Shown here in pieces: positions 51,290 through 62,651 of a stretch of 64,000 nt of DNA. The DNA is from Owenia fusiformis (taxonomy: Eukaryota > Annelida > Polychaeta > Sabellida > Oweniidae), in assembly GCA_903813345.2 (NCBI GenBank), contig CAIIXF020000003.1:17498931-17562930 (forward strand). Direction: 5' to 3'. The notes under the pieces were generated by a model that did no database searches, was not told the origin of the DNA, and was given only the letters and a program-made list of their open reading frames with translations. Each line of letters opens with the position of its first letter. Positions within the stretch are counted from its first letter, which is position 1. The translations under genes were made by a program, and so were the position numbers.

Positions 51290-54200
51290 CGCATCTTTAG
51301 TTTTCCTGACTACATCTAGGTAAGCCATTCCAGGTTTCACCATAAGCATGTCAGCGCCTTCTGCCACGTCTCGATCCTGAAACGTATATTCTGGGTATAA
51401 GTTGCACCAGACCAGGTTTGTATTCAAAAAGATTCAAAAGATTCAAAAAGGCATTAGCATGCAAAATGCCACCACCTGCCATTTGTTACAGATGCCAAAC
51501 TCCAAACCCTGACTACCAAACGCCAAACACTGTCCAGAAAAAATGTTGGAGACTAAAACAATATGTCCCTACTTGGTGATTGACACAAATGTGATATATA
51601 ATTAGACTTGTTTAATTAGGAAACATGTTTGACCTAATTTTTAACATCTAATAATTATTTACCACTGCTCTCATTGCGAGGCCCATGGATCCTGTAGGGA
51701 GCTGGTAACATTTACGATCACCAAAAGATGGAGCACTTTTTGCAGCATCCCTGCAAATATATAGATGTAAGTACATGTACTTCATAAATTTTGCTGTATT
51801 AAATAGCAATGGTACAGTACACAGTTCCTACAGTGGGTGTGTTATCCTTACTCGGTTTGTTTATCTCGTGGTAAGGACCCTATAAAATCAAAAAGGCTGG
51901 AGGGATTGGACTGAAAGTTTGAAAATCACTTCAAATAAACCCTAAAATTCAAATGAACATATAACAGCGCAGATACTCAGTCAGCCATGACCCTAGTGTT
52001 ATGCAGTAATATGACATCACTTCCTGGGTCACATCCGAATAGCCTGACAACGGTAAAGTCAGATACCATTGTCACAAATGGCGAACATAACCGTCGCTTC
52101 AACTCTTCAATCGCTTGGTCCTCGTTTCATGGAACTTTATCGTCACTAATTTTGTGCATGTATTAAGCTCTTGTGATGATGTATCATATGAAATCCCAAT
52201 TTCGATCAAATTGGGTCGTAAATTGGCACAATATAGCGTCTTCGATGTCGTCAATGACAACAGAATCTGAATTTTAAATAATTTACCATATGCCGTTGTC
52301 TTTGTAAATTATCCCAAATACAGATTCCGTTGCGACGGTTATGCCCGCCATTTGTGACAACGGTATCTGACTTTCCGTTGTCAGGCTATTCCGGTGTGTG
52401 AGTGAAATCTTAAAAGATAGCAATTTACTGGAAATGAGCGCTACATTTTAAACCTTGTGTGGCAGAGTCCCTTCAAAATAGATCAGCAACTTAAGAGTAA
52501 AGGGTACACTAAGTACAGGGTGAGCCAAAAAGGGTCACCCCAAACAAATGTTAATAACTCAGTCATTCAGCATGGGCTTAAAATCATATTCGATACAATT
52601 AAACCTTGTTCACTGTTCTTTCATTCTATTTCATTCTTAGCTTCTTCGGTCTATTCCAATAGTAATAGCCTATCTGAGGCAAACTTGAATGCATCTGTGA
52701 AGTGTTCTGCCTACATGTTCACAGATCTTTTGAAATGACTCTCATCTTCTTTCTAATCTCTTGTTTCATCTCTCTGGCACTTCTGGCTTGTTAGTGTAGA
52801 CATTATCCTTGAAATAACCACAAAGATAAAAGTCTGGGGGTTCATATCAGGTGAGTTGGGCATATTTTGGCATTTTGAGCACATTTAGAATAGATAAATG
52901 AATAGCAGAATAAAAAACATTGAACAAGGTTCAGTTGTGCCAAATATGAAATAAAACCCATGCTGGATTCATTTGTTTGGGTTACCTTTTCATGGCTCAT
53001 TCTGTCTAACAGAATTGTTTCACTTGATAAGTAGTTACATTTGTTTCCAACTCCAATTGAAACCATAACATCTACTTTTTAATATTTTCATAATTATATT
53101 TTTGATATATCCAAATTTTACATCATAAGATATCTAAGTCTTCCAGCTCTCCTAGCTCCATCAGTTCCTTTCTATAATGATACAATTAAACTTGTAAAGT
53201 GGAACACCTCTAGAAGTGGAACACTTTCAGAGTCCCAAAATGGCTGACCAACTGACTTAATGTTAAATAAACTCTATGAGTGGAACACCTCTAGAAGTTG
53301 AACACCTCTGCAAGTGGAACACTTTTCAGAGTCCCAAGATCATGACTTAATGTTAAATGTACCTCTATAACTGGAACACCTCCCAAGTGGAACACTTTTT
53401 AGACGTATCAAAGCTGTTCCACTTATACAGGTTTTACTGTATTGCTAGTTTGAAACACAGGGAGTAAGTTACCCCAACCCCTTTTATATTCCCTATTTAA
53501 AAACATTTTAATATATAGAATATACTAGAGGGGGTGACTTACTCCCCATGGTTTGAAATCAGAAAGATGTTGAATACAATCAAACAATTATGGTAATAGC
53601 ATTTGATCTATCATATATTATATCATATTTTATAACATACCTATGATGATGTATAGTGCAAAGTGTACACTAGACAGCGGGCCAATATAAGTTTTGAAAA
53701 GCCCGCGCACTTTCTGATTGGTCAAGGCGCTGACGTCATAACCAATCAATCGAATATAAAACTGCGCGAGCAATTTTTCTAAACTCATTTCAATCATTTT
53801 CAAACCATTTGTTTGTCAATTCTATAAGAAAACGGTACTCTCTGACCAGTCTACATCATCATAGGTATGTTATAAATCGTTTATGTCACTATCGTGGCAC
53901 ATATGCCCTCGGTTCTCAGAGATCAATGTCCCTCCCAAGGTCGGGCCATATATCACTGAGACCTCGGTCATATATGCCACGATAGTGACATAACCTCTAA
54001 ATATAATATTATACGATTATATTACATGCCATTATATTTTGTTATATTATATTATATTATATCATTATTTGAACACAATCAAATGTCATTTTAATCTGTA
54101 ACCTAAATCAACTCCTGACATCTATTGTGGTTGGCACATGGTTCTGGCTTCCAAGCTGGCCAATGGATGTCAGGTTATTCAAGTTCCTGTGATTTTAATA

Positions 54201-62651: not shown

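Follow-up and report, generated by a model that had tools for sequence, protein, structure and literature searches.

The predicted ALAD gene and the tubulin gene in its intron 4

The locus described here contains a predicted gene for ALAD, the porphobilinogen synthase of haem synthesis, on the minus strand and, on the plus strand inside one of its introns, a predicted beta-tubulin gene. The window, by which we mean the whole stretch of DNA that was analysed, comprises 64,000 nucleotides of contig C3 of Owenia fusiformis (17,498,931-17,562,930). Negative positions and positions above 64,000 denote flanking sequence in window coordinates. ALAD could be rebuilt from eight minus-strand exons, which have GT-AG borders, agree in phase (2, 0, 1, 2, 0, 0 and 1 at the successive junctions) and would encode a product of 331 amino acids. 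The gene would span ~85.5 kb, from 78336 to -7197. A PF00490 profile search of the 498-Mb genome, in which six candidates were scored, gave five exon matches; all five fall at this locus, on the minus strand and in gene order. A homeobox search, which scored 150 of 218 candidates, gave 139 matches; 133 are on contigs C1-C12, among them a dense group on C1 (17.97-18.47 Mb) and a single match at 18.96 Mb. For Owenia fusiformis, PMC9977687 describes 12 scaffolds of chromosome scale and, on chromosome 1, a Hox cluster from which Post1 is set apart. A COX1 search of the genome gave no match.

Exons 2 (76564-76711), 3 (67000-67219), 4 (62507-62651), 6 (51290-51376) and 7 (-6229 to -6100) were marked by Pfam (PF00490), and exon 4 also by the PDB alignment. 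Exons 1 (78224-78336), 5 (51663-51750) and 8 (-7197 to -7133) were recognized by frame reading and known motifs. Exons 5 and 6 encode 29 amino acids each. Two of the introns concern us here: intron 4 (51751-62506; 10,756 bp), which houses the tubulin gene, and intron 6, with 57,389 bp in total, which fills positions 1-51289 of the window and continues to -6099.

The 331-residue product aligns with human ALAD (PDB 1e51) over residues 3-329 with E=1.2e-150, and in this alignment it keeps the lysine segments SAKFAS and MVKPGM and the cysteine segment CDVCLCPY..HGHC. The earlier note had proposed that three minus-strand ALAD exons with matching splice phases flank the tubulin gene, and this stands: all have GT-AG borders and the two junctions are in phase 2 and phase 0. 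The predicted junction from 62507 to 51750, on which that proposal depended, is positioned exactly by its GT-AG borders and phase. We take the lysine and cysteine segments to be the catalytic ones, and a 12-residue segment encoded by exon 4 presumably includes the active-site lysine. With a full-length match and these segments conserved, the predicted gene is assigned to ALAD.

The plus-strand gene consists of exon 1 (54408-54464, codons 1-19), exon 2 (55743-55851), exon 3 (58177-58532) and exon 4 with the stop codon (58670-59485). These four exons join into one complete open frame of 445 amino acids. Pfam found PF00091 and PF03953 in it, exon by exon, and the best PDB beta-tubulin chains match over residues 1-444 or 1-445. 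Judged by this full-length match and the tubulin domains, the predicted gene is a beta-tubulin.

The whole tubulin coding sequence (54408-59485) lies within the single ALAD intron 51751-62506, as had been claimed. Between its start and ALAD exon 5 there are 2.7 kb, between its stop and ALAD exon 4 there are 3.0 kb, and the ALAD exons on either side are predicted to form one spliceable reading frame. The tubulin gene is thus, as predicted from the DNA, an opposite-strand nested intronic gene, and its coding exons do not overlap those of ALAD. The same claim called the arrangement head-to-head. That term has to be given up: one gene is nested in the other on the opposite strand, and ~24 kb separate the start codon of ALAD from that of tubulin.

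A TATA-like stretch (54303-54330, plus strand) precedes the nested tubulin gene and may serve as its promoter; TATAAA lies 105 bp and AGCAAC 83 bp before the ATG. On the other side of the gene, AATAAA or ATTAAA occurs at 741, 914, 1391, 1850, 1868 and 2807 bp past the stop codon. As a TATA-like stretch and sequences resembling poly(A) signals are both present in the intron, independent transcription of the nested tubulin is most likely. It is possible that the gene has its own transcript ends inside ALAD intron 4. The first AATAAA, at 741 bp, sits in a terminal repeat of an inverted-repeat element in the 3' flank (60161-61163). The terminal inverted repeats of this element are 209 bp long and 88.5% alike. 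Its frame of 99 amino acids (60510-60806, plus strand) resembles by eye a remnant of a mariner-type transposase, and Pfam assigned this frame to no family. Neither Rfam nor a tRNA scan found anything in the window.

Tubulin paralogues and the origin of the nested copy

When exon 4 of the nested tubulin was compared with the genome, 25 matches were obtained. Four of these, with identities of 100, 100, 99 and 94%, are beta-tubulins; none of the remaining 21 exceeds 53%, and 18 of them are at 31-41%. The second 100% copy is on the minus strand of the same contig, at C3:17351654, ~206 kb from the nested tubulin, with which it shares all three introns. The copy on contig C11 has only the first two of them, and a copy at C3:21746956 has none. 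The nested tubulin, the C3:17351654 copy and the C11 copy have identical amino acids over positions 1-430. The C3:21746956 copy differs from them at 25 amino acids in the same range; intronless, with 94% exon-4 identity and an open frame, it is likely to be a retrogene and possibly functional.

The C3:17351654 copy deserves particular attention, since it is the closest relative of the nested gene. Their proteins are the same apart from the acidic tail. BPHL starts ~6.4 kb beyond the end of this copy, which we call BPHL-linked for this reason. Compared with human valacyclovir hydrolase, BPHL exon 1 gives E=2e-8 and exon 2 gives E=7e-19; in the ~5 kb read beyond, a search by motif gave no further BPHL exons. 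The ATG of the BPHL-linked tubulin is preceded by TATATA at a distance of 93 bp and by AGCAAC at one of 73 bp.

The gene list for human 6p25 in PMC4502905 runs RIPK1, BPHL, TUBB2A, TUBB2B. A tubulin copy near BPHL in Owenia (C3:17349500-17359400), just as TUBB2A comes after BPHL in the human list, may represent deep microsynteny. We assume that BPHL and TUBB2A/TUBB2B are direct neighbours in the human genome, and the relative orientation of BPHL and tubulin there presumably differs from that at C3:17351654. Our literature search on BPHL with TUBB2A and synteny returned no paper. Given that BPHL comes before TUBB2A in the human list, the BPHL-linked copy probably keeps the old position and the copy nested in ALAD is probably the derived one.

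How could the nested copy have arisen? The statement of the earlier note that the tubulin gene keeps its introns, and so did not arrive as a retrocopy, is borne out: there are three introns, in the same places as in the BPHL-linked copy. A processed retrogene is thereby ruled out as the source of the nested tubulin. The three shared intron positions, together with weak similarity of the promoters and 3' flanks, indicate that the nested tubulin arose by duplication at the DNA level.

We also considered that ALAD or intron-4 sequence might have travelled together with the tubulin gene. The comparison covered 9.9 kb around the BPHL-linked copy and gave no support for this; within these 9.9 kb, the DNA shared outside the neighbourhoods of the exons is a short repeat family only.

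Similarity between the two copies

Exons 2-4 of the nested and BPHL-linked tubulins are 98-99% identical. Exon 1 behaves differently. Counted over codons 1-430, minus the codon that is split between exons 2 and 3, dS between the two copies is 0.89 for exon 1, as against 0.047, 0.088 and 0.090 for exons 2, 3 and 4. Codons 1-430 differ at 30 bases and at no amino acid, so the two changes scored as non-synonymous must be intermediate steps in codons with double changes. Synonymous changes affect 6 of ~12 sites in exon 1 vs 22 of ~272 in the rest (Fisher p=3e-4; the exon 1 changes are few).

The rest of the two genes has diverged to various degrees. For intron 1, the alignment score is -231.5 vs -234.5 for the best of 10 shuffles, and the local score is 30 vs 25 for the best of 20. 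For intron 2, the alignment score is -117.5 vs -130.0 for the best of 10 shuffles, and the local score of 43 is below the best of 20 (52). Intron 3 has 81% identity in aligned columns vs 67% when shuffled. For the 5' flank of 200 bp the corresponding values are 73% vs 62%, and for the 3' flank of 200 bp 82% vs 62%. All three of these regions are above all 100 shuffles and are nevertheless diverged.

A pattern in which exons 2-4 are nearly identical and exon 1, introns and flanks are diverged would be best explained by gene conversion confined to exons. The main competing explanation is a single, simple and moderately old duplication with no conversion at all. Synonymous sites would then be constrained in the exons, and introns would lose their similarity through fast turnover of indels. 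The residual similarity is in line with this: none of 100 shuffles reaches the score of intron 3 or of either 200-bp flank, and introns 1 and 2 are slightly better than all 10 of theirs. What speaks against it is the C11 copy. Its dS relative to the pair is 0.69-0.74, yet its amino acids in 1-430 are the same, which means that synonymous sites are free to change. Moreover, 7 of the 57 bases of exon 1 differ within the pair, a number similar to those that separate its members from C11 (7 and 5 bases). We therefore regard a simple duplication as unlikely, and exon-confined conversion as the better reading.

Concerted evolution of beta-tubulins is not without precedent, and chicken beta-tubulins are one example. 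It is also reported for the beta-tubulins of Leishmania (PMC1533823), where, as here, nearly identical coding sequences are accompanied by diverged flanks and conversion was proposed. Unlike the Leishmania genes described in that source, the Owenia pair has introns, and one of its copies is nested in another gene. Conversion of exons while introns diverge is mentioned in PMC1533823 for ruminant lysozymes.

Nesting and its possible consequences

Taking these observations together, we think it quite probable that a four-exon tubulin, duplicated as DNA and derived from the BPHL-linked gene, sits complete in ALAD intron 4 with its own promoter, that its exons 2-4 have been converted, and that any antisense effect is small or avoided. 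The history would be as follows. A tubulin gene would have been copied at the DNA level from the BPHL-linked locus ~206 kb off on the same chromosome, this direction being the one suggested above. The copy would lie complete in intron 4 of the ~85.5-kb minus-strand ALAD gene. Later, to judge from the pattern of divergence, exons 2-4 of both copies would have been homogenised by gene conversion, with exon 1, the introns, the promoters and the 3' flanks left to drift apart. Two differently placed regulatory units would now specify one and the same polypeptide, the acidic tail excepted.

As for the working of the pair, the nested tubulin would have a TATA-type promoter of its own, and its transcript would most likely end within the intron. 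ALAD would splice out intron 4 together with the tubulin gene, and the mature mRNAs would have no coding exon in common. Any effect of antisense RNA or of collision would probably be small, or the two transcriptions would be timed apart.

The nesting could, on the contrary, be used for regulation. ALAD read-through might repress tubulin, or vice versa, through collision or antisense RNA, so that the two genes are active in opposite cells or stages. The geometry permits this, given that the strands are opposite and the tubulin gene is wholly inside the ALAD transcript unit. Antisense competition has also been proposed as a means of control (PMC8527503). However, according to the summary in PMC3786989, a comparison of 109 human and 752 fly pairs of host and nested genes detected no significant correlation, and any effect could be buffered by other beta-tubulin copies of identical sequence. 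We consider such a regulatory use improbable.

The earlier note had reasoned that the arrangement, with what it took to be a highly expressed gene inside ALAD, implies antisense overlaps that are either tolerated or used. Published views of nesting disagree. In PMC3786989, nesting is currently considered neutral, with long introns as a niche for insertion; according to PMC8527503, it may serve transcriptional control; and in PMC3192792, nested genes are described as interfering with their hosts in human cells. Because of this disagreement, the arrangement alone leaves undecided whether the overlap is tolerated or used.

A more elaborate proposal can be made, which we mention as a quite improbable one. 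The two tubulins might exchange exonic sequence only, perhaps via a spliced-RNA template. One polypeptide would then be maintained in two regulatory settings, one of them under ALAD antisense transcription, and ALAD would provide a shared chromatin setting for the genes nested in it.

Finally, an assembly error that joined the ALAD exons or the tubulin gene from different places is hardly conceivable, since 93,001 bases (17,489,000-17,582,000) of a 34.9-Mb contig are free of any N, there is one ALAD locus by PF00490, and its eight exons are in order and in phase. The single locus and the lack of Ns mean that nothing points to ALAD exons from separate loci, and we consider that idea, which the earlier note had named as one that could overturn its proposal, ruled out.

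Preferring the first of these readings, we can place the pair among known nested genes. The opposite-strand nested intronic gene of Drosophila was reportedly described by Henikoff et al. in 1986. Nested genes are common in animals (PMC2151771, PMC3786989, PMC8527503, PMC3192792), with 972 of them counted in 22,291 human genes analysed (PMC2151771) and 2,357 nested intronic genes in the ctenophore Hormiphora (PMC8527503). About 63% of nested human genes are on the opposite strand and ~41% are single-exon (PMC3192792). The nested tubulin, with four exons, differs from the latter. It resembles other opposite-strand nested genes of animals in that a whole protein-coding gene lies in one intron, along with sequences that look like a promoter and poly(A) signals. 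The inverted-repeat element beside it can be compared with the transposable elements that flank 1,109 of the 2,357 ctenophore nested genes (PMC8527503). Another parallel is Drosophila tim2-2mit (PMC3786989), where an opposite-strand gene also lies in a host intron and the partners are seemingly unrelated in function. The tim2-2mit pair is kept across drosophilids and in honey bee, according to the same source, whereas ALAD/tubulin is known here from one genome.

The nesting itself is of an ordinary kind for animals. ALAD and beta-tubulin form a particular pair; this pair was absent from the results of our literature search, judged by titles and the starts of abstracts, and may still have been published. 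The additional interest comes from the near-identical paralogue, the exon-confined similarity and a second nested ORF. One ALAD host locus, one nested copy and, ~206 kb off, a paralogue whose protein differs in the tail only make a clean test case. With the paralogue as an internal control, the effect of nesting on expression would be measurable, and the pair would make it possible to trace exon-confined conversion between copies that lie apart.

The second nested ORF (44340-44861, plus strand) is inside ALAD intron 6. It is KCNE-like, has 173 amino acids and, by eye, one membrane segment. With PF02060 it gives E=1.6e-4 and 21.8 bits, just below the cut-off of 22.1, and with PDB KCNE1 E=0.18. 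A genome-wide PF02060 search at 0.001 gave no match, this ORF included, and the same search detected none of its controls. Two weaker relatives of the KCNE-like protein are on contig C1 (48% over 48 amino acids and 36% over 47). From stop to stop the frame has 177 amino acids vs 163 for the longest in 100 mononucleotide shuffles of the 51,289 intron bases. It is probable that this ORF represents a second opposite-strand nested gene in ALAD. In our literature search on KCNE in invertebrates, the word KCNE occurs in none of the 10 papers listed out of 512.

In the window part of intron 6, 16 stop-to-stop ORFs reach 100 amino acids or more, and the gene search applied Pfam to 7 of them; of the remaining 9, 5 overlap tandem repeats. 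Further ORFs outside these, the two BPHL exons apart, were judged by eye. More nested genes may therefore exist, as may a gene between BPHL and the BPHL-linked tubulin. Intron 6 holds tandem arrays at 22395-24717 (period ~42-115 bp), 26145-27373 (~145 bp), 31436-32555 (~136 bp) and 34090-35376 (~103 bp), and these long arrays are part of the reason why the intron is so long. It also contains a LINE-like remnant (45482-46279, minus strand) with the reverse-transcriptase zinc-binding domain PF13966.
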